35,024 nt of DNA from Verrucomicrobiota bacterium (GTDB lineage: Bacteria > Verrucomicrobiota > Verrucomicrobiia > JABWAM01 > JAHFSZ01). The stretch spans positions 3,541 through 38,564 of the forward strand of contig JAHFSZ010000009.1 in the NCBI GenBank assembly GCA_023265515.1. The letters run 5' to 3'. The notes beneath the pieces are model-generated. The model did not search any database and was not told where the DNA came from. It saw nothing but the letters and a program-made list of their open reading frames with translations. Numbering within the stretch: the first letter of the stretch is position 1; every line of letters starts with the position of its first letter. The position numbers and the translations under genes are program-made. This document shows, in pieces, positions 12,172-34,756 of the stretch.

Positions 12172-14424
12172 ATGAAACTGAAGGCATCCTACCGTCATTG
12201 TTGGAAACTGGCGAAGCGGACCGGAAAAAACTTTTATTACTCCTTCGTGACCCTGCCGCGGGAAAAGCACATGGCCATGTGCGCGATCTACGCCTGGATG
12301 CGCCTGCTGGATGACTGTGTCGATGACGCTTCCGGGCCGCAGGAAGCGGGCCAGGCCCTTGAACAATGGGAAAAGAAGACGCGCGAGCTGCTTGCCGATC
12401 CGGCGGAGGCCGGCGATTCCGGCACGTTGTGGCCTGCATTCGTGGATACGGTCCAGCGCTACAACATTCCTGATGGTTATTTCTTCGAGATTATTCGTGG
12501 AGTCAGGATGGACTTGACCATCAACTCTTATCAGAGCTTCGATGAGCTCTATGAGTATTGCTACTGTGTAGCGTCTGTTGTCGGACTGGCGTGCCTGCAT
12601 GTCATGGGTTTTACCCATGCTCAGGCGAAAAAGCACGGCGAATGGCTCGGCATCGCCTTTCAACTCACCAACATCCTGCGGGACATCAAGGAGGATGCGG
12701 GCCGCGGCCGGATTTACCTTCCTGCCGATGAGCTGCAGGCCTTCAAGATCAACCCGAACGACATCCTGGAACTGCGTTGGAGCAGGGAGCTCCATGACCT
12801 TGTCGAATGTTATTCCTATCGCGCTGAAACTTATTACCTGAAGGCACAGCCGCTTTTCGACATGGTTCTGCCCGATGCAAGGCCCACGCTGGAAATCATG
12901 TCGGAAATCTATGGAGGAATTCTCCGGCGCCTGCGCGAAATCCATTACGACGTTTTCAACCATCGGGCCGCGCTCACGCGCCGTGCGAAACTGATGGCCG
13001 TGATCCGCCGCCGCTTTGCAAAAAGGCCGGCCGTGCCGTCCGGAGAGGCTGCTGCGCCCGATCTTTCACCGGGCAAAATCGCGATTGTCGGCGGCGGCGC
13101 GGCCGGGTTGGCGGCCGCGGTGGTGCTGAGTGAATTCGGGTATGAGATCTCCGTTTTCGAGAAAAAAAAGATGCTGGGCGGCAAGGCCGCCTGGTTTTCG
13201 GATGCGCGCCGTGACGAGGATCTTGAAAATCCGACCCATTTCTGGCTGACCCCGCATGCGAGCTCGGCCCGTTTTTTTTCCATGGTCGGCGCCCGGCGTC
13301 TGTTCGAGCTCCGGTCGGGGTGGCGCGTATTGGCGAAAAACAAAGTCGGCACCCTCAGGCCGTCGGAACGGCTCCCGTTTCCCTTCCACTGGCTGCCGTC
13401 GCTGCGGCGACTGGGGCTGGGCTGGCAGGAATGCCGATCCATCATGCAGGCAATGTTCCGCCTGGCGCGCTACGACCGGGAGGAGGAAATCCGCCTGGAT
13501 CGGTTGACCTTTCGGGATTGGCTCCGTTTTCATAAGCAGAGCGAGAATTCGGTCGAGCGTTTCTGGAAACCGTTCCTAAGCATCGGCATCCCCGACCGAA
13601 TCAGCCGGCTCTCGACCTGCCAGGTCGCATTTTTCCTCCAGCAGGTCGCAGTGTCCGGCCCGCTCGGGTGGTACGCTCCGACCGTGCCGGCCGGCGGCAT
13701 CTACGATGGGGTCTGCCGCTGGTTCCTCCATTCCCGCCATGTGGAAATCCGGACGGATGAAGACGTCAAAAGCGTTTTTTATGGCAACGACCAATGGAAC
13801 GTGCAGACGGGTGATGGCACCACGCACACATTCGATGAGGTGGTTGTCACCCTCTCGCGTGAGCTGGTTGGGCAGATTCTTCAGCCGAAGGATTACGCGG
13901 TGTTGACCGCGCGAGCCCAGTTCGACCAGCTCGGCTATGTGCCGTCGCTCCTGGCGCAACTTGAGTTTCGCCAGCCGCTGTTCGAGGCCTCCTCCTACAC
14001 CCTCCTCAATGAGGCGCCGTTTACCTGGGGCATCGCCTCGCCGGTCGCGCGGGCGAGCATGACGCAGGCGCCTTTTTCAGTGACCTTGGTGGGCAGCGAT
14101 TCGCGCCCCTATGTTTTCACGGAGAACCCGCAACTTCTCAACAATCGCCTCCGTGAGATTTGGGAAAACATCCTTGGTGAAGGTGAAGCTCCGGTGAACA
14201 CCGAACTGTGGTATGGTGTCGACCGCAATTTTGCCTCGGAGCCCGGAAGTTTTGCCCACCGGCCCTCGCAGGAAACCTCCCTGCCGGGACTCTGGCTCGC
14301 CGCCGACTGGACGAAGACCGGATGGCCCGCCGGGCTTGAGGGGAGCATTGACAGCGGCTTCCGCTGCGCCGAAAAAATCCTCGAAAAGCGCGGCTGGAAG
14401 ATCCGCCTGGTTCCCGAGGCCTGA
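12172..14424 (+). CDS. hpnDE: Fused presqualene diphosphate synthase / FAD-dependent squalene-forming oxidoreductase (HpnD-HpnE)
   Basis: Two enzymes are joined in one 750-residue chain. Residues 1 to about 285 are a trans-isoprenyl diphosphate synthase with the two Asp-rich motifs DDCVDD (47-52) and DIKED (171-175), as in HpnD, which condenses two farnesyl diphosphates. After a short linker, an FAD-binding fold starts at about 303 (IAIVGGGAAGLAAA, then a Glu at 330). The end, WLAADWTKTGWPAGLEG, is the C-terminal FAD signature of HpnE/carotenoid-desaturase-like amine oxidases. In bacteria HpnC, D and E make squalene for hopanoids. HpnC is not in the window. A phytoene synthase/desaturase pair is the alternative, but the ADWTxTGWPA ending favours HpnE. 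No Shine-Dalgarno sequence before ATG 12172. Confidence 0.85.
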   Translation: MKLKASYRHCWKLAKRTGKNFYYSFVTLPREKHMAMCAIYAWMRLLDDCVDDASGPQEAGQALEQWEKKTRELLADPAEAGDSGTLWPAFVDTVQRYNIPDGYFFEIIRGVRMDLTINSYQSFDELYEYCYCVASVVGLACLHVMGFTHAQAKKHGEWLGIAFQLTNILRDIKEDAGRGRIYLPADELQAFKINPNDILELRWSRELHDLVECYSYRAETYYLKAQPLFDMVLPDARPTLEIMSEIYGGILRRLREIHYDVFNHRAALTRRAKLMAVIRRRFAKRPAVPSGEAAAPDLSPGKIAIVGGGAAGLAAAVVLSEFGYEISVFEKKKMLGGKAAWFSDARRDEDLENPTHFWLTPHASSARFFSMVGARRLFELRSGWRVLAKNKVGTLRPSERLPFPFHWLPSLRRLGLGWQECRSIMQAMFRLARYDREEEIRLDRLTFRDWLRFHKQSENSVERFWKPFLSIGIPDRISRLSTCQVAFFLQQVAVSGPLGWYAPTVPAGGIYDGVCRWFLHSRHVEIRTDEDVKSVFYGNDQWNVQTGDGTTHTFDEVVVTLSRELVGQILQPKDYAVLTARAQFDQLGYVPSLLAQLEFRQPLFEASSYTLLNEAPFTWGIASPVARASMTQAPFSVTLVGSDSRPYVFTENPQLLNNRLREIWENILGEGEAPVNTELWYGVDRNFASEPGSFAHRPSQETSLPGLWLAADWTKTGWPAGLEGSIDSGFRCAEKILEKRGWKIRLVPEA

Positions 14425-23263: not shown

Positions 23264-24463
23264 TCACGGGGTGAAGTAATCGATCTCAAATGCCGTGGCT
23301 TCCATCTCGGCGGCGCTCATGCGGCGGTTGCGCGCCGCTTCGCCCCAGCTTTCGCTGAAGATCACTTCGTCCCGGGTGTCGTTGAAACCCGTGATCACGG
23401 AGGCGTGGCTGGCGGCCGAACTCGCCGGCCATCGCGCTCGCTCGCCGCGGTCAGGCTTCGGAAGGCGGATGGAGGGATCTTTTTCGAACTGCCGCGCAAA
23501 CTGTGTGTGAAACTCGTCTCGTACACGGTCGAATTTCCGGCCGACAATGACAGGCTCGCCCTTGAGAAGGAATTTTTTCGCCTTCCTGAAATCAAATGAC
23601 CTGTCCACTTTGAGCTTGAGCTTGGCCTCCTTCGCGCAAGCGGAATAAACAGCGCCGAGATCGGCATTGGCCGCGTCACCTTCCTTGTAGCCGGCCTTGG
23701 CCGCGACCAGATCGACGTTCACCGGCAATCCATAATACCGCGTGAGCATCGTCAGCGTCCCGATCGCGCAGTACCCGCGCTCCCCCTGCTCGACGACCGG
23801 AAGGTTCTGGATGACGATATCCCCGTTCGCGAGCCGCGCGACGTTGGCCTGGATATCCAGACGCCTCCCGACCAGTCCCGCCTGGCCGTCCGGAACCGAG
23901 AGAAGCTTTTTCGACGCCTCCTCCTGCGCCGGCAGGACCGAAATCGCAATCAGCTGGTTCTCCTCCGCGAAAAGCCGGACCACGAGGCCGCCTGCCGCAA
24001 AATCGGTGACGCGTGACCGGAGAAGCTGGGACTTGCCGACGTTGCGCCGCTGACCGGTGCCGTAGAGGGAGGACAGCTCCCGGATCAGGCCCGCTTCCAG
24101 GCTCTTGAATTTCGCTTCGAATTCCTTCTGCGATTTTTTCAGCCCGGCATCCCGCGCCTCGTGGCTCCCGAAAAAATTCCCCGCCTCGAGGTAGGTGACA
24201 TTGAGCTCGGCAAGCTTTTCGCCGTCAAAATACGCCTGGACCTGTTCGGGCGCCGTCCCGAAAACCATGGCGCTTCCAGACATCTGGAGGGTCCTGCCCT
24301 GCGCGTTCGTGCCGACGGGCCTCCAATCCCCGGGTAGAAGCGACGATTGCCACGTCTTCGGACTGGCCAGGACGGCCCCCAGATCGGCAGGTTCCTGCGC
24401 CATCGATGAAAAGGGAAGGGCGAGGGCCATCCAACAGAGAAGTCTGAGGAGGGCGTCTACCAC
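23264..24463 (-). CDS. Exported C39-like cysteine peptidase
   Basis: With GTG 24463 the protein has 399 residues and a signal peptide (hydrophobic 5-19, cleavage likely after SSMAQ). Residues 25-210 form a domain I do not recognise. The C-terminal half is papain/C39-like: Gln226 and nucleophile Cys232 in EQGERGYCAIGTLTMLTRYYG, His353 in SHASVITGFND, and a final SESWGE like the papain-fold NSWG box. Unlike bacteriocin transporters it has no ABC or membrane part, so it would act as a free periplasmic or secreted peptidase. The GTG lies inside the last codons of the preceding gene (7-base overlap), implying translational coupling. Last gene of the five-gene exported cluster. Confidence 0.75.
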   Translation of the reverse strand: MVDALLRLLCWMALALPFSSMAQEPADLGAVLASPKTWQSSLLPGDWRPVGTNAQGRTLQMSGSAMVFGTAPEQVQAYFDGEKLAELNVTYLEAGNFFGSHEARDAGLKKSQKEFEAKFKSLEAGLIRELSSLYGTGQRRNVGKSQLLRSRVTDFAAGGLVVRLFAEENQLIAISVLPAQEEASKKLLSVPDGQAGLVGRRLDIQANVARLANGDIVIQNLPVVEQGERGYCAIGTLTMLTRYYGLPVNVDLVAAKAGYKEGDAANADLGAVYSACAKEAKLKLKVDRSFDFRKAKKFLLKGEPVIVGRKFDRVRDEFHTQFARQFEKDPSIRLPKPDRGERARWPASSAASHASVITGFNDTRDEVIFSESWGEAARNRRMSAAEMEATAFEIDYFTP

Positions 24464-24978
24464 TTGTACTTGGTCTCGCCCGAGATGTTTTTCGATGCTG
24501 ATTTGCCGATTGCGTCAAGGACCATCATCGGGGCGGTCTTGCCGTTGTAGGAATAGGGTGTCCACCAGGCGGGCTTGGTTTCGTTGGTGATGCCGCGTGC
24601 CGTGACGTAAACGTAATCGGCGCTCCCCGGGCTGTAGACGCCGCCGCGGCGGTATTTTTTGTAAGACTCCTGCTCCGAGACGAGTTTCTTGAAGAAGCTC
24701 AGCGACTCTTTCGGAAACTCAACGCAGACATGGTTGTAGTCGAGGTCAAAGAGCCGGACCCAGTAGCGTTCGGTATCGATCTGGTTGACGGCTTGGCGGT
24801 AATGAAATTTCAACCGGAACGTTTTTTGGTCGAGCGACAGCACCTTCTCCGAAACCTCGGGGATCGTCAGGGTTTCGATCTGAGGCTCTTTCTGGGCAGG
24901 CGCAGCCACTGGCCATAGCAGGAGCAGGATCGCGGCGGCAGCAGCGCAAGATGGCAGATTTTTGCTTGTTGGTTTCAT
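24457..24978 (-). CDS. Small exported protein with C-terminal SKNxSGETKxxW motif (copy 1)
   Basis: This 173-residue protein has a signal peptide (Ala/Leu-rich residues 11-28, cleavage likely after APAQ). The mature part has LTIPEVSEKVLSLDQKTFRLKFHYR, then a beta-rich stretch and a Tyr-rich loop, and ends exactly with SKNISGETKYKW. The protein encoded at 34328-34756 has the same layout and the same ending, so they are paralogues. I know no named family with this ending. Function unknown; the all-beta look and export suggest a binding or structural role. It follows the TPR lipoprotein gene by 58 bases and overlaps the peptidase gene. Confidence 0.75.
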   Translation of the reverse strand: MKPTSKNLPSCAAAAAILLLLWPVAAPAQKEPQIETLTIPEVSEKVLSLDQKTFRLKFHYRQAVNQIDTERYWVRLFDLDYNHVCVEFPKESLSFFKKLVSEQESYKKYRRGGVYSPGSADYVYVTARGITNETKPAWWTPYSYNGKTAPMMVLDAIGKSASKNISGETKYKW

Positions 24979-25036
24979 GGTTCGCTATGCGCCGCCGCAT
25001 TCTTAACAGCAGTCGCCGGTTTTGTCGAACCCGACT

Positions 25037-26365
25037 TTAACCTTTCGCCAACTCGATGGGCGTGGGGGGAGCTTTGGGCTTGAGGCGTTTCTTGACGATG
25101 TTCCAATGGATCGCCCGGAAATTTTTTTCCAGGTCTGCGTTGCCCGGATAACGTTTGAGACCCTCGATGGTGGCGTGCTTCGCGTCGAAAAATTGTCCGG
25201 TGACGTAGTAGCAGTGTCCGAGTCCCATGAAGATGCCGACATCCCTCTCGCCAAGCGTGTAACTTTGCCGAAAAGCGCGGATCGCGGACGCATAATCTTT
25301 CAGGTCGACGAAAGCATGGCCCGCCATGCGCCACTGATGGCCGTCGTTTGACTCCAATGCCGCAAAATTCTTGAAAGAGACGGCCATGCCCCTTCGATCA
25401 TTCAGCATCCCGCAGATTCGGCCCATCAGGTAATGCGCGTAAGGCTCACGCGGATCCAACTGGATGCATTCGGTTGCGTATGCCTTGGCCTTGACGGGCT
25501 GGTTAAGATTCCAGAAGCAATAGGCCGTTCGCAGAAGCGCCCATTTGTAATACGGGTCGGAGGAGAGCTGTCCAGCGGAATGGATCCGTTCGAAGGTTTG
25601 AAGAAGCGGAATCGCCGCTTCCGGGCGGTTGCTGTCGATGTGGAATGCGGCCAGGAGAGGATAGACCTTGAAATTATTCGGGTCGATCCGGATGGCGGAT
25701 TCGAGATGTTCCATCGCCCTGGCATGATCGCCGAGTTTCAAGGAAGTTCGGCCGATGCAATAGTGCACGTCGGGATTGTCAGGGACGAGAGCGAGGGCCT
25801 TCTCGAACAAGGCCAACGCTTTTGCATCGAGGTTTTTTTCATTCAGAATTTCCCCTCTTGCCAAATACTGCTTCGCCATTTCCTGGTTGCCGGAAGCATC
25901 CGGCTTCCATGGGATCACTTCGAAGTCAACCGAATCGGAGAGCGTCTCCAGCTTCTGTTCTTCGGCGATGAAACGGCGGATCCGTTCAACGTCCGCCCGC
26001 ACCCGGACCACGTCCTCGTCCAGGTTGACCGAGCGGATTTCGATCCAGTCGGCGCCGGGGGAACCCGCGGCGGCCCGGTGGCCGGCGATCACCAGCGGCA
26101 GAAGCAGGACTTCCTTGCGGCCGTGGTTTTGCTTGGCTGCCTCGGCCGGTTGAAACTCGATGAGCCATCCCGTCTTCCATGGGAGTTCCAGTCGGGAGAC
26201 GGTGAAGGGGGAGAGGACGTCCTGGGATCGGAACGCGGGATCGAGCGCCGCGTGAAGCGCCGGGTCGGGCGTCGCTTTCGGTTTGCACGCGAGCAGGCAG
26301 ATGCCGGCGGAAACGACCACGAGTCCGGCGAGGGCGATTCCGGCAGCCAGGATTTTTTTTCGCAT
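25037..26365 (-). CDS. TPR-repeat lipoprotein
   Basis: Starting at ATG 26365 gives 442 residues with a lipoprotein signal ending in LLAC (Cys27). Residues 30-170 are a domain without clear similarity. From about 175 onward there are six or more TPR units, such as ALALFEKALALVPDNPDVHYCIG, HLESAIRIDPNN and KAKAYATECIQLDPREPYAHYLMG. An upstream open frame to 26689 lies inside the previous gene and is Arg/Gly/Pro-rich, so it is not used. TPRs imply protein-protein contacts, probably with other products of this cluster at the membrane. It starts 26 bases after the glycine-zipper gene. Confidence 0.82.
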   Translation of the reverse strand: MRKKILAAGIALAGLVVVSAGICLLACKPKATPDPALHAALDPAFRSQDVLSPFTVSRLELPWKTGWLIEFQPAEAAKQNHGRKEVLLLPLVIAGHRAAAGSPGADWIEIRSVNLDEDVVRVRADVERIRRFIAEEQKLETLSDSVDFEVIPWKPDASGNQEMAKQYLARGEILNEKNLDAKALALFEKALALVPDNPDVHYCIGRTSLKLGDHARAMEHLESAIRIDPNNFKVYPLLAAFHIDSNRPEAAIPLLQTFERIHSAGQLSSDPYYKWALLRTAYCFWNLNQPVKAKAYATECIQLDPREPYAHYLMGRICGMLNDRRGMAVSFKNFAALESNDGHQWRMAGHAFVDLKDYASAIRAFRQSYTLGERDVGIFMGLGHCYYVTGQFFDAKHATIEGLKRYPGNADLEKNFRAIHWNIVKKRLKPKAPPTPIELAKG

Positions 26366-26391
26366 GGAGGATGTCCGATGGGTGCGGTCGC

Positions 26392-27765
26392 TTACTGGTT
26401 TCCGTAATGAATTGTCCCGTCCGGGCGCCGGTGCGCGCCGGGAGGAAGACTTTCCGAGGAAGGCGAGCCTGTCGAGGATTGCTGAGTCTGTTGTGGAGAC
26501 TGATTCATTCCCTGGCCCATGGCTCCGAGAATCGCCCCGAATGTGTCGAGCGCCTGCGCTGCCTGGGCCGCGTCCCGGGCGCGGCGGGCGCGCTCCGCGG
26601 CGATCAGTTCCTGCTCCTCGCGAAGACGCGCCAGTTCGTCCTGTCGTTCCCATTCGCGGCGGGCGCGCTCTTGCTCGCCGACTTCCCATTCCACGTCCTT
26701 TTCCAGTTGCGCGATTCGATCGAGCACCGACTTCTCCGCGGCGGCGAGCGCGCCATTCGGGTCGATTCGGCTCGGGCCGTACCCGTCCGGATGGTCCCGG
26801 TTGCTCTCATAAATGCCGACCTTGATTTGAGTCAGCGCCTTTTGGAAACCGGGATCGCGAAGATCATCGAGGCTCGGCGGGCCAAAAACCGGCGGCGGCC
26901 TGTTCCAGATTTTTTTCCAAACTTCAAATGCCTGAGGCGTCAGCACCTGCTTCATTCGCTCGATCTGTTTGAGCCGGTCGAGCGCTTCGGGAGTCAAATT
27001 GGCTTGCTCGGCGTTGATATCGGCGCGGCCCTGGGCATCGGCGCCGCGCGGGTCTCCATAATAGATTTCGGCGCCCTTGTTGAGCCCCGCGTCGACGATC
27101 GGCTTGCCGTACTGGTCGTAAACCTTGCCGCCTTTCCACGCGCCGTAAGCTCCGCCGACGACGCCTCCGACCACCGCTCCGGGCGGACCGAACGTCGCGC
27201 CGCCCACCGCCATGCCCGCCTGGCCTCCGGCCCACGCGCCGCCGGCCTTGACGCTGTCGCTGAGCCTGTCGTTGACCAGCGTGCTGGTTCCACCCACAAT
27301 GTCACCCGAGGCCAGTTCTCCGGCCCCCGTGGCATAGACGCCGGCCTTGTCCATCATTCCGGCGACCTCTCCCGCCTTGCCAAGCTTGTCCTTGGTTCCC
27401 TGCCAGCGGTTCTTCACCTGATTTTGCGCGGCGTTGAACGAGTTCATGCTCTTGACCGTTTTCTGCAGTTCGTTTCGCGAGACGAACCTGCCCGTGATTG
27501 GATCGACCAGCGCACCGCTTTTGTCGAGGGACAGTTGGCCGGTCCGTGTCAGCATTTCTCGCGCAGTCCCGGCATCGAACGGACCCTTGGTGTGAGCGAG
27601 TGCCTCGGATGCCGCCGACAGAGAATCGGAAACCTCACTGGCGCCCTGGCCGGCCATCAGCCCGGCCTGGTCCCACGCAGGACCGGTATCATGAGATTCA
27701 TCGGCTCGCAGGCCGGCGGCGAACCCTGCTAGGACAACCAGCGCAATCACCAGTCGAAGTTTCAT
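26392..27765 (-). CDS. Exported glycine-zipper / coiled-coil protein of unknown function
   Basis: This 457-residue protein has a signal peptide (residues 3-20, cleavage likely after GLRA). A helical region of about 120 residues is followed by a glycine-zipper segment (about 175-215) with GGQAGMAVGGATFGPPGA and VVGGVVGGAYGAWKGG, a pattern of membrane-inserting or pore-like helices. After a DYxYGDPRG-type middle comes a long Glu/Arg-rich coiled coil (about 350-405) and a Gln/Ser-rich tail. I do not recognise a family. Its start overlaps the stop of the upstream lipoprotein gene by four bases (ATGA). Confidence 0.75.
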   Translation of the reverse strand: MKLRLVIALVVLAGFAAGLRADESHDTGPAWDQAGLMAGQGASEVSDSLSAASEALAHTKGPFDAGTAREMLTRTGQLSLDKSGALVDPITGRFVSRNELQKTVKSMNSFNAAQNQVKNRWQGTKDKLGKAGEVAGMMDKAGVYATGAGELASGDIVGGTSTLVNDRLSDSVKAGGAWAGGQAGMAVGGATFGPPGAVVGGVVGGAYGAWKGGKVYDQYGKPIVDAGLNKGAEIYYGDPRGADAQGRADINAEQANLTPEALDRLKQIERMKQVLTPQAFEVWKKIWNRPPPVFGPPSLDDLRDPGFQKALTQIKVGIYESNRDHPDGYGPSRIDPNGALAAAEKSVLDRIAQLEKDVEWEVGEQERARREWERQDELARLREEQELIAAERARRARDAAQAAQALDTFGAILGAMGQGMNQSPQQTQQSSTGSPSSESLPPGAHRRPDGTIHYGNQ

Positions 27766-28781
27766 GATCCGTTCTCCGAAGCGCGGTTGAGCGCGTACAT
27801 CCGCGCGTAGTCGACCAGGTCGATGCGTGTGAGTTTGAGTTTGTTCGGTTTTCCCCTGAAGAGGAAGCTCACGAAATAGCCGCTCCCTTCGGTGGGAACC
27901 AGGAAGACCATCGACGACTCGCGGCCGAGCAAAAACGAGATGGCCCGCAGCGAGGCGAAGTTCCCGGGTGGAATCCGGGCCAAGGCCTCTCGGACCGCGG
28001 GAAGGGTTTCATCGGCGGATTTTACGACGTCGCGAATTTTTCCGGATCGCGCCAACTCGAGCGCTTTCACCGACGCCGCGCGCATGGGTGCCAATCGGGG
28101 ATCCTCGCCCGGTAGAGGCTCGCGAATTTCGTCGATCTCCGTGAGGTTTGTCAGCAGAAGCAGGGAGACGCCGGCATAGTTCACCTCCGTGACAAGTTCC
28201 CGATCCTCGAGAGCGGGGATGGCCTTGCGCCAGTTTCCACTGCCTTTGGAAAAAACCGCCTCGATGTCTCGTACTGCCCCGGCCGTGGCATCGCCGACCG
28301 CCGCCGGCTTGAAAGTCTTCATGCGGAGCCACGCGGGCGCGGGGACGAACGGCGGCTCGCCTTTGTTCCGGACGAAATCGCCCATGAGCATTTCCGCGTC
28401 GGCGATCTTGGGGCCGTCGCCATCGACCTGCCAGGAGGTGAGGAGAAACACATCGCTCCAGGGATGATAGAAGGCCACCACGGGGTTCTTGCCTTCCATA
28501 TTCCCGAACGTGATGATCGAAGTGTTGAGAAAGTAGGACCAGCCCACCTTGGGGTTGGTGAAATTCCAGATCTTCTTGTCAAAGGCCTGGAACTTCCTGA
28601 TCGCCTCGGGCGTGGCGAACTTTTCGAGGGCTGGGCTCAGATCGTAGAGACCGGCCTGCCGGAGGGAGAGAACCCCCTGGCCCACAAGAAATTGGCGATC
28701 TTTTTGCGTTAACTTGCTCCCGCAACCGGCCCAGAGCAGGGCAATTATTACGCAACTCAGTATAAAAACAGGGCGTGTCAT
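27762..28781 (-). CDS. Putative lipoprotein, first gene of exported-protein operon
   Basis: The 339-residue protein has a signal sequence ending in LLWAGC (Cys20), a lipobox-like site although Trp at -3 is unusual. The mature protein mixes alpha and beta: KKIWNFTNPKVGWSYFLNTS, VAFYHPWSDVFLLTSW and a C-terminal LGRESSMVFLVPTEGSGYFVSFLFRG. I know no named family. It is the promoter-proximal gene of five codirectional genes down to 23264, all encoding exported products. A possible promoter lies 27-56 bases upstream. Confidence 0.72.
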   Translation of the reverse strand: MTRPVFILSCVIIALLWAGCGSKLTQKDRQFLVGQGVLSLRQAGLYDLSPALEKFATPEAIRKFQAFDKKIWNFTNPKVGWSYFLNTSIITFGNMEGKNPVVAFYHPWSDVFLLTSWQVDGDGPKIADAEMLMGDFVRNKGEPPFVPAPAWLRMKTFKPAAVGDATAGAVRDIEAVFSKGSGNWRKAIPALEDRELVTEVNYAGVSLLLLTNLTEIDEIREPLPGEDPRLAPMRAASVKALELARSGKIRDVVKSADETLPAVREALARIPPGNFASLRAISFLLGRESSMVFLVPTEGSGYFVSFLFRGKPNKLKLTRIDLVDYARMYALNRASENGS

Positions 28782-28837: not shown

Positions 28838-28884
28838 AACTGTATTGTCCGAAATGGGCAAATAATGCATCTCCGATTCGAATT

Positions 28885-28913
28885 TTGACAATTGAGCGGA
28901 CCTGGAACAAAAT
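28885..28913 (+). promoter_or_regulatory. Possible promoter of the glycoside hydrolase gene
   Basis: A perfect TTGACA (28885-28890), a 17-base spacer and CAAAAT (28908-28913, 4 of 6) face away from the operon promoter. A start site about seven bases on would leave almost no leader before the TTG at 28922, which counts against it. Confidence 0.22.
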
Positions 28914-28921
28914 GAGGAATC

Positions 28922-30322
28922 TTGAACCGGGCCGGACTATTTGCATTTCTCATTGTTGCAATTTCCCCGCAAAGCCTTTGGGCCCAAGAGGGTGCCTTGC
29001 CCAAGGTCGAAGCCCGGCGGACACCGCAAGCGCAGTGGAGTTTTTATCCGACGCGGACCGTCCATCAGCTTCCTGGTTTTACGCCGGTCGCAGCCGATCC
29101 CGCGCGCCTGGACAAATACGGCGGGCTGGCGTCGCAGAAGACGGTCGCCACGGGTTTTTTTTACGTGAGGAAGGCGCAGGATCGATGGTGGCTGGTCGAT
29201 CCGGAGGGTTGCCCATTCCTGCATGTGGCGGTCGTGGCCGTGTCTCCGGGGAAAACCCGTGCCAACCGCGACGCGCTCGAGCAGAAATTTGGGACGGAGG
29301 AGAAATGGGCGCAAGCCACCACGAAAATGCTCAGGGACCATGGCTTCAACGGCTCTGGCGCATGGTCCGACGCTGAGCTGATCCGCAAGTCGCCGACTCC
29401 CCTGGTTTACACGCTCCTGTGGGATTTCATGAGCGGCTACGGCCAACAACGCGGGGGCACCTACCAGAAGCCTGGCAATACGGGCTACCCGAACGACACC
29501 ATTTTCGTTTTCGATCCGAAATTCGAGGCCTACTGCGATGAGCGTGCCCGTGAACTGGCGAAGACGAAGGACGATCCGTATCTGCTCGGGCATTTCTCGG
29601 ACAACGAGATGCCGTTTCCCTCCGATGCCCTGAGGAAATATCTCGAACTCAACAAGGACGACCCCGGCTGCAAGGCCGCGAGGGAGTGGCTCGAAAAACG
29701 GAAGGGCCTGGCCGCCAAGACCGGGGAGGTCAACAGCAAGGACTGCCAGGAGTTTCTCACCTACATGGCGGCCCGGTATTTCGACATCACGTCCAAGGCA
29801 ATTAAGAAATATGATCCCAACCATCTTTTCTTCGGATCGCGCTTTCACGGCCGGGACCTCGACGACCAGAACCTGTTCAAGGGCGCGGGGCCTTACTTGG
29901 ACGCGGTTGCGGTCAACTACTACAATGAATGGACGCCGCAACCGTGGCGGCTCAAGAACTGGGAGAAATGGTCCGGCAAGCCCGTGATCATCACCGAGTG
30001 GTACGTGAAGGGCGCGGACGCAGGCTTGCCGAACAATTCCGGCGCCGGCTGGATCGTGAAGACTCAGCAGGACCGCGGGCTGTTTTACCAGAATTTCGCG
30101 CTCGGCCTCTTGCAATCCAAGGTCTGCGTCGGCTGGCATTGGTTCAAGTACATGGATAACGATCCTTCCGACATGACAACAGACCCTTCCAATCGGGACT
30201 CCAACAAGGGAATCGTCACGATACGCTACGACGAGTACAAGCCGTTGCTCGACGCGATGAAAGAACTCAACGAGCAGGCGTATGCGCTCGTCGACTACTT
30301 TGACAAAAACCCGCAGCGGTAA
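28922..30322 (+). CDS. Exported GH-A-clan glycoside hydrolase (agarase/GH50-like)
   Basis: The 466-residue product starts with TTG, preceded by GAGGA, and has a clean signal peptide (FAFLIVAI, cleavage likely after SLWAQ). No in-frame ATG could replace it. RWWLVDPEGCPFLHVAVV (about 88-105) is common in GH50-like and related agarase-type enzymes. The TIM barrel carries the two catalytic glutamates expected for clan GH-A: Glu229 after Asn228 in HFSDNEMPF, and Glu359 in VIITEWYVKG. VNYYNEW and VGWHWFKYMD fit the sugar-binding face. It likely cleaves a beta-linked polysaccharide outside the cell or in the periplasm; the substrate is not readable. It ends three bases from the convergent stop. Confidence 0.75.
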   Translation: MNRAGLFAFLIVAISPQSLWAQEGALPKVEARRTPQAQWSFYPTRTVHQLPGFTPVAADPARLDKYGGLASQKTVATGFFYVRKAQDRWWLVDPEGCPFLHVAVVAVSPGKTRANRDALEQKFGTEEKWAQATTKMLRDHGFNGSGAWSDAELIRKSPTPLVYTLLWDFMSGYGQQRGGTYQKPGNTGYPNDTIFVFDPKFEAYCDERARELAKTKDDPYLLGHFSDNEMPFPSDALRKYLELNKDDPGCKAAREWLEKRKGLAAKTGEVNSKDCQEFLTYMAARYFDITSKAIKKYDPNHLFFGSRFHGRDLDDQNLFKGAGPYLDAVAVNYYNEWTPQPWRLKNWEKWSGKPVIITEWYVKGADAGLPNNSGAGWIVKTQQDRGLFYQNFALGLLQSKVCVGWHWFKYMDNDPSDMTTDPSNRDSNKGIVTIRYDEYKPLLDAMKELNEQAYALVDYFDKNPQR

Positions 30323-30786: not shown

Positions 30787-31650
30787 CTATTTGCCCGGAC
30801 CGCCGCCCTGAGGCAGTGGCGCAGGAGGAGGATTGGAATCGTGCTGGTTTCGCTGGGCCTCAATGGCTGATTCGGCACCGGAGTCGGTGACATAATGAAG
30901 GCCCTGTCCATCTCCGGTGATGGTGAGCTTGCCGGAGGTGAGCAATTTCTGCTGGGCGTCGATCGCGTCCTGAATCAACTGCTCGCTGCCGAGGGGGCCC
31001 TTGAACGACTTGAGCATCGTGGAGGTTCCGACAAGGCGCTTCAGGTCGATCGTTGTGGGCGGAGAGATGCCCTGGCCCGGCGTGTAAATGCAAAGCTGGC
31101 CCGGCTGAAGCGTCTCAGTCTGCCCCTGGAAGCTCAGCATCGACGTCCCCTCCAGGTCGATCAGTTTTACCGAACCGTCTTGCAGCACCGAAAACATGAT
31201 GGTCGTGCCCAGCACGGCTGCGGTGGCGGTCGGGCTGGTGACCGTCGCCCCGCCATTGCCCTTGGGAGTGTGCAGAAGAATGAACCCCGAGGAGAGATGA
31301 ACGTTGCGGCTGTCGGGTCTAAAAGTAAAAATACTGTTTGCGCCGAGGCGCGCGATTGTGTTGTCGTTAAAGCGCAGTTCGGCGCGCGACTCCTTGCCTG
31401 TTGTGAGCAGGCGGCCGCCACGGATCAGATCGCCAACCGCCGCGGGCCGCGTCGGCGCCTTGGTGGGATCGCGGTAGGGGGAAGGATCCGGGCCTGCCGT
31501 GGGGCCGGCCGCGGGACTTTCCTCTTGGAGACGCACGTCATGGCGGATTTCCGTCACCTTCGCGTTCCGAAGCAACTCGGGCGCCGCCATCAACGGGAAT
31601 GCGGCCAGGAAAACCCCCGCCATCGCAAGTGATAAGGTTTCTCTTTTCAT
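30787..31650 (-). CDS. Exported FecR-domain protein
   Basis: From ATG 31650 the protein has 287 residues and a signal peptide (SLAMAGVFLAAF, cleavage likely after LMAA). The central FecR domain (about 70-190) shows GDLIRGGRLLTTGKESRAEL, then FNDNTIARLGANSIF, and VLGTTIMFSVLQDGSVKLIDLEG. The C-terminus is Pro/Gly-rich (PPPAPLPQGGGPGK). No sigma factor or TonB receptor gene accompanies it, so it is more likely a periplasmic scaffold or sensor than a classical FecR. The longer frame to 31818 has no signal features at its start and reaches into the divergent gene. Confidence 0.85.
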   Translation of the reverse strand: MKRETLSLAMAGVFLAAFPLMAAPELLRNAKVTEIRHDVRLQEESPAAGPTAGPDPSPYRDPTKAPTRPAAVGDLIRGGRLLTTGKESRAELRFNDNTIARLGANSIFTFRPDSRNVHLSSGFILLHTPKGNGGATVTSPTATAAVLGTTIMFSVLQDGSVKLIDLEGTSMLSFQGQTETLQPGQLCIYTPGQGISPPTTIDLKRLVGTSTMLKSFKGPLGSEQLIQDAIDAQQKLLTSGKLTITGDGQGLHYVTDSGAESAIEAQRNQHDSNPPPAPLPQGGGPGK

Positions 31651-31709
31651 CCGTTTGCAGTTAGATTCCTCTCCATAGTAGGAAAACAACATCGTCCGGG
31701 AAAGGGAAA

Positions 31710-34294: not shown

Positions 34295-34329
34295 CAATTC
34301 CAAGTTCAAGGTTTTAAATTCTGGAATCT
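34295..34329. repeat. Short heptad array at the 3' end of the SGETK copy-2 gene
   Basis: AATTCCA, AGTTCAA, GGTTTTA, AATTCTG, GAATCTA (34296-34330) run in period 7 up to and into the stop codon (34328-34330). ATTCCA and TGGAAT at the ends are complementary. The word resembles the TTCTGAN type of the element at 10678-10765. It is short and degenerate. Confidence 0.5.
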
Positions 34330-34756
34330 ACCAGTGAACCTTCGTCTCTCCGGAGGTGTTCTTGGAGAGACTCCGCCCCCTGGCTTCGAGCAGAAGTCCC
34401 GTGTAGGTGGAGTCCTTGGAAAGGGGAAAGGACGAGTGGAGAATGCCGTAGACCGAATCTCCCTTCGAGGCGGTGGTGGAAAATTTTCGCATCACCTCCA
34501 ATCCTTCCTTGGAGAAGACCACGTAAAGGGTGCTGTCTCCATGCAAGTAGACGGAGTAGAGATCCTTGTCGATCTGCGTGATGCCGGAGCGCGAGAAGAA
34601 CTTCAGCCGGATCAACTGGCCCTCGAGATCGATTTTTTTCTCCATTACCTCGGTGATCGTGAATGAGCCTGCGAACTTGAAATCCGCGAAGGAGGCTGCC
34701 GCCGGAACAAGGAGGACCGCCGCCAGAAAGGTCCAAAATCGGGATGGCGGCATCAT
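34328..34756 (-). CDS. Small exported protein with C-terminal SKNxSGETKxxW motif (copy 2)
   Basis: This 142-residue protein has a signal peptide (FLAAVLLVPAAAS, cleavage likely after SFA). The mature part, FTITEVMEKKIDLEGQLIRLKFFSR, lines up with the copy at 24457-24978, as does KEGLEVMRKF with KESLSFFKKL. It ends in SKNTSGETKVHW: nine of the last twelve residues are identical to the other copy. It lacks about 30 residues, mainly in the Tyr-rich loop. It starts six bases after the stop of a lipoprotein gene, so again sits in an exported-protein operon. ATG 34756 or 34753 may be used. Confidence 0.75.
   Translation of the reverse strand: MMPPSRFWTFLAAVLLVPAAASFADFKFAGSFTITEVMEKKIDLEGQLIRLKFFSRSGITQIDKDLYSVYLHGDSTLYVVFSKEGLEVMRKFSTTASKGDSVYGILHSSFPLSKDSTYTGLLLEARGRSLSKNTSGETKVHW

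Follow-up and report, generated by a model that had tools for sequence, protein, structure and literature searches.

In Staphylococcus aureus, the glycine zipper of EsxX is sequestered in a hydrophobic groove of ExiB, a duplicated alpha+beta protein (PMC12744356). The glycine zippers of Tde1 permeabilize membranes (PMC10240207), the killing proteins of the Cdz system contain such zippers (PMC5380434), and the immunity proteins listed for polymorphic toxin systems include some with an NTF2 fold (PMC3482391). Here we compare with these systems a locus of five genes (A to E) from a Verrucomicrobiota bacterium, in which the gene for an exported glycine-zipper protein (B) overlaps that for a predicted alpha+beta protein (A). 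The locus lies in a stretch of 35,024 nucleotides, which as a whole is called the window below, of a metagenome-assembled genome (G000; 2.2 Mb, 103 contigs, 88.5% complete).

The likeness to EsxX/ExiAB of the S. aureus T7SS (DUF5085) lies in the combination of a membrane-active zipper protein with a duplicated alpha+beta partner, and a zipper is present in B. However, ExiAB is cytoplasmic and GyrI-like (SHS2), whereas A is predicted to be a periplasmic, NTF2-like protein. EsxX carries an LXG domain and leaves through the T7SS, whereas B has a Sec signal. Pfam gave no LXG match in B and no DUF5085 match in A. We infer that the A-B pair works most like this known type, in which a partner masks a zipper protein, but probably in a different compartment and with a different fold. 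The Cdz cluster of Caulobacter (CdzABCDI) resembles the locus in that exported zipper proteins and a protection gene are found together (PMC5380434). Yet CdzC and CdzD are only 84-86 amino acids long and use type I secretion, and CdzI is a small inner-membrane protein, whereas B is a protein of 457 amino acids with a Sec signal, and the ORFs of the window and Pfam scans revealed no adjacent type I genes. The polymorphic toxins with Imm-NTF2 proteins are comparable in their NTF2-fold immunity and in view of the variable C-terminus of B, but A fits no Imm model and B is without a recognized toxin or trafficking domain. An exported glycine-zipper hairpin, as in B, is also a feature of SlyB and the 17-kDa glycine-zipper outer-membrane lipoproteins, from which B differs in being without a lipobox, in having only a sub-threshold zipper match, and in coming with a partner, A.

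Layout of the five genes

The first-pass annotation had described five overlapping or closely spaced genes between positions 28781 and 23264, and the ORFs and their junctions are as it described them. All five are open, tightly packed, and on the minus strand. Gene A (28781-27762, 339 amino acids) overlaps gene B (27765-26392) by the 4 bp ATGA. A gap of 26 bp separates B from gene C (from the ATG at 26365 to 25037, 442 amino acids), and a further 58 bp separate C from gene D (24978-24457, 173 amino acids), which overlaps gene E (from the GTG at 24463 to 23264, 399 amino acids) by 7 bp. The N-termini of all five products are Sec-signal-like, which bears out the earlier statement that only exported proteins are encoded. 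A fits the lipobox pattern with LWAGC and C has LLAC, and the signal peptides of B, D, and E are ordinary ones as judged by eye. Lipid anchoring of A is seen at some of its sites. Pfam matches over the cut-off were obtained only for C (TPR) and E (Peptidase_C39_2), and A and D have no Pfam match of any kind. In line with the annotation, which had recognized no system, no described system was found to fit the locus.

A promoter-like sequence, TTGTCA-18-CATTAT, is located upstream of A (28862..28891, minus strand); it is a consensus match only, of which the region holds four against 0.9 expected. Divergent from A across a gap of 140 bp, the gene at 28922-30322 (plus strand) encodes an exported protein of 466 amino acids that is glycoside hydrolase-like by eye and has no Pfam match. 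No secretion component is encoded within the operon, and no outer-membrane export system lies beside B in the window. A foreign base composition of the operon was rejected, as its GC and GC3 are in line with those of the neighboring genes. Elsewhere in the window are a separate FecR gene (30787-31665) and a gene (12172-14424, plus strand) for a single protein of 750 amino acids that combines a squalene/phytoene synthase domain with an FAD amine-oxidase domain.

Protein A and its predicted fold

Protein A has no family match in Pfam, NCBIfam, PHROG, or PADLOC, and neither a solved structure nor a published description was found for A or for the A-B pair, which also has no library entry; A of the window is the founding member here of a family without a library entry. 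Its structural model (AF2, 13 sequences; pLDDT 88.7, pTM 0.85) consists of helices and then four strands, an arrangement that occurs twice in succession. The single-domain matches in Foldseek are mostly NTF2/cystatin-like (SgcJ, AtzH, DUF4783, and the CaMKII hub). Several NTF2-like chains are matched with a probability of 0.97-1.0, but the matches are weak, with E values of at least 0.03 and TM scores of 0.4-0.5, and none of the 13 A members matches an NTF2 family in Pfam. By sequence, a tandem repeat in A is marginal (hhalign P 0.043). A is thus NTF2-like by prediction only, within an alpha+beta architecture that is modeled with confidence; a tandem of two such folds is suggested by this profile match together with the recurring order of elements. 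Conserved aromatic residues (W81, F84, W117, and W151) are placed around the first sheet of the model, and D110 is invariant. Matches of the A profile to HindIII and PP2A in the PDB (E 0.04-0.6) were taken as chance.

Fused forms of A occur at two other sites. At L062 (9932-11557, minus strand), the A domain is fused behind a FecR domain, and a B-type gene and a presumed outer-membrane barrel follow; at L053 (7645-9192, plus strand), it is fused behind a CBM_4_9-like carbohydrate-binding domain, whose match is just below the cut-off. A was absent from the phages, plasmids, and viral contigs searched, and as D was likewise not found in phages or viral contigs, a phage or plasmid origin was rejected.

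Linkage of A and B across four phyla

As a single query, A was found in 4 of 188 genomes of the class Verrucomicrobiia, and a five-row profile found it in 5 of 384. A scan of named genomes added sites in Nitrospirota (L052), Planctomycetota (L053, L056, and L058), and Omnitrophota (L054 and L055). Sampling of the phyla to which the Planctomycetales site and the Omnitrophota site belong gave 1 of 246 and 3 of 193 genomes, respectively. A is present in about 1% of the sampled genomes. The collected sites number 15 and come from Verrucomicrobiota, Planctomycetota, Omnitrophota, and Nitrospirota. An exported glycine-zipper gene of the B type adjoins A at 12 of the 14 judgeable sites (at L053 the contig is cut off). 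In the window and at L031, L034, L054, L055, L056, L058, and L063, A lies upstream with the 4-bp ATGA overlap; L033 is an exception, with B upstream of A. At L072, A has no B-type gene beside it and is located in the vicinity of Tad pilus genes, not far from a contig end; at L073 it is without a neighboring zipper protein. Two divergent A-B pairs each are carried by G003, a genome of the same order, and by G027, from another family. Recurrence of this adjacency in four phyla is beyond chance and shows that A and B are linked and form the conserved core of the operon.

The glycine zipper of B, GxxxGxxxG, is found at about residues 176-212, ahead of a coiled-coil C-terminal part, and matches Gly-zipper_Omp in Pfam below the cut-off; the protein contains no Cys residue. 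A PHROG match to tape-measure proteins (E 2e-6) spans the zipper region and was taken as an effect of composition. The B-type proteins share a core, AGxxAxGDxxG followed by a GxxxG-rich hairpin, and have a variable C-terminus. A profile built with B of the window left out finds this protein at 21.8 bits (E 8.7e-6 in a small search), against no more than 8 bits for local shuffles of the protein, and matches none of 312 other proteins encoded at these loci. Such a held-out test succeeds for 7 of the 12 B-type proteins. The remaining five (L052, L034, L032, L063, and L062) were assigned by position, export, and a Gly/Ala-rich hydrophobic stretch, and part of the A-B association therefore rests on architecture. 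A short C-terminal tail with two Cys and a final Arg (for example CSGPCR, CTPGCR, and CRCGRGR) is present on 7 of the 12 (L031, L032, L033, L034, L056, L058, and L063) but on only 1 of 243 other proteins (Fisher p 5e-10, with the close pair L056/L058 counted twice); B of the window does not have it.

Evolution is much faster in B than in A, and the two proteins' similarity matrices correlate weakly (Spearman 0.37-0.39, Mantel p about 0.02). The A tree mixes phyla and contains two supported groups. A of the window is nearest to the rows from Planctomycetota and Nitrospirota and not to those from other Verrucomicrobiia. To account for the Verrucomicrobiia rows, two or more changes on supported branches are needed. 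Because the tree mixes phyla and A occurs in only about 1% of genomes, horizontal spread of A is the simplest reading, with loss as the alternative.

The first-pass annotation had treated the five genes as one operon and had named the absence of a conserved gene order from all relatives as a refutation. Conservation was found, of A-B in four phyla and of A-B-C in one further genome, and the annotation is thus not refuted; as a unit of five, however, its operon holds only in part, since relatives of D and E are mostly single genes elsewhere, not conserved with A-B. A single conserved unit of all five was rejected, as only A-B recurs, with A-B-C once. The latter order is found at L063 in G027, where a homologue of C directly follows A-B. 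C has a TPR_2 match (E 1.1e-22) in five stretches and a specific N-terminal domain at residues ~35-160; it aligns with the L063 homologue over residues 86-429, including the region ahead of the TPRs. A profile of the N-terminal domain, of limited reach with its two rows (the window and L063), found only these two A-B-C sites among 188 genomes. TPR genes come after A-B at L052 too. On this Thermodesulfovibrionia contig (5010-16493), A-B is surrounded by genes that all run the same way, for a CsgG/fn3 protein, two TPR proteins, and two exported proteins with a C-terminal domain in common.

D, a small protein with an SGETK tail, is predicted to be an OB-fold protein: its model is of moderate quality (pLDDT 70.7, from three sequences), and Foldseek gave a probability of about 1.0 for the OB-fold, with E about 1e-3 at best. 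A paralogue with the same tail is encoded outside the operon (34328..34756, minus strand). A further homologue is located in a prophage-like region of G130 (L035, 9074-9517), beside antirepressor- and tail-like genes, and the family is otherwise nearly absent from 217 genomes of the class.

E, a papain-like protease, belongs with the C39-type peptidases (PF13529, PF11814), scoring 35.5 bits against Peptidase_C39_2 (PF13529; cut-off 24). Against PF03412, the family that is joined to an ABC exporter in the bacteriocin-processing type, it reaches 11.9 bits (cut-off 22), and unlike that type E has no ABC domain and is not fused to a transporter. Q226, C232, and H353 are invariant in seven aligned proteins, and E also retains the SxSWG motif seen in its relatives, but the third catalytic position is Glu371 in E and Asp in the relatives. 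Closer relatives of E are common, being present in 28 of 57 genomes of the class as single genes in other contexts. Proteases of the C39 type lie near A at 3 of the 15 sites (in G000, G003, and G717). At L031, the protease (DUF3335) follows A-B, and at L073 a PF13529 protease is three genes from A. E in G000 and the L073 protease in G717 are each the sole PF13529 member found, and for any given gene the chance that a PF13529 gene lies no more than five genes away is about 0.5% per site; the occurrence in the window was the starting observation and does not count as independent evidence. As E and the L031 protease show no homology by BLASTP, the association is a recurrence of a protease type and not of one close family. 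With such proteases at three sites, the earlier suggestion of an adaptor and a protease that serve a membrane-inserting protein is plausible.

Possible roles of the A-B pair

We suggest, with a rough probability of 0.4, that A is a periplasmic chaperone or immunity partner of the membrane-active hairpin of B, with C as a scaffold and E as a processing protease. A and B would reach the periplasm via Sec. A would be made first, bind the glycine-zipper hairpin of B, and keep B soluble or inactive; such masking of the hairpin is itself inferred, on the model of ExiB and EsxX. C would scaffold the A-B complex, and trimming of B or of a partner by E would allow the hairpin to insert into a membrane. 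C, D, and E would then be lineage-specific helpers of a conserved exported pair. The target of B may be competitors or the cell's own envelope. The missing toxin or delivery domain and the ordinary Sec signal speak against a toxin, and rarity speaks against a housekeeping function; we therefore keep this reading at the stated strength. Weighing against it are L072 and L073, where A has no B-type neighbor, the 5 of 12 sites where the homology of B has no profile support, the single other site at which C accompanies A-B, the weak Foldseek matches of A (best single-domain E 0.03), and the Glu at the third catalytic position of E.

A more far-reaching form of this proposal seems doubtful to us. 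It holds that A-B is an unrecognized, horizontally spread envelope module, in which a tandem NTF2-like periplasmic A neutralizes or chaperones a fast-evolving, membrane-inserting zipper B, different C39-type proteases have been recruited repeatedly as activators, and A without B represents acquired immunity.

An antibacterial toxin-immunity pair is likewise a doubtful explanation. B would be a membrane-depolarizing zipper toxin with a variable C-terminus, secreted or held at the surface, A a periplasmic lipoprotein immunity protein, E and C would act in processing and release, and A without B, as at L072 and L073, would be orphan immunity. Glycine zippers do occur in the toxins Cdz, EsxX, and Tde1 (PMC5380434, PMC12744356, PMC10240207) and NTF2-fold proteins among the listed immunity proteins (PMC3482391); the rare, patchy, and phylum-mixing distribution of A, the two divergent pairs in G003 and again in G027, and the far greater variability of B than of A also fit. 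Nevertheless, searches of Pfam, NCBIfam, and PADLOC did not reveal a toxin, trafficking, or immunity domain; the Sec signal of B is an ordinary one, with no outer-membrane export system beside the gene in the window; and the immunity protein against a pore former is usually a polytopic membrane protein (PMC12744356).

Closer to the envelope machine of the first-pass annotation, the pair could instead serve the cell's own envelope, with B as a structural outer-membrane or surface protein that its zipper hairpin anchors or oligomerizes, and with A, C, and D as periplasmic assembly factors. The export signals on all parts agree with this, as do the fusions of the A domain to FecR (L062, with the presumed outer-membrane barrel next to it) and to the CBM_4_9-like domain (L053), the CsgG-domain and fn3 protein close by at L052, and the Cys-rich tails of 7 of the 12 B-type proteins, which could cross-link. 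We regard it as unlikely, since even among close relatives the genes are very rare (found in 5 of 384 genomes of the class), a distribution that speaks against a basic role in the envelope, and the neighbors vary from site to site. That A to E are only loosely grouped, unrelated exported proteins, among which only the A/B overlap is old and no physical complex is formed, would suit the single-gene relatives of D and E, the linkage of C at one other site only, and the unproven homology of B at five sites, but is very improbable given the adjacency of A and B across four phyla despite great divergence and a C-specific domain found only with A-B.

Family A thus has no entry in the four libraries searched, has a conserved partner in four phyla, and was found here almost only in metagenome-assembled genomes. 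If A masks the zipper of B, as we propose, A would be the counterpart of ExiAB in the periplasm, though with a different fold, and an example of how bacteria deal with membrane-active hairpins beyond the cytoplasm.
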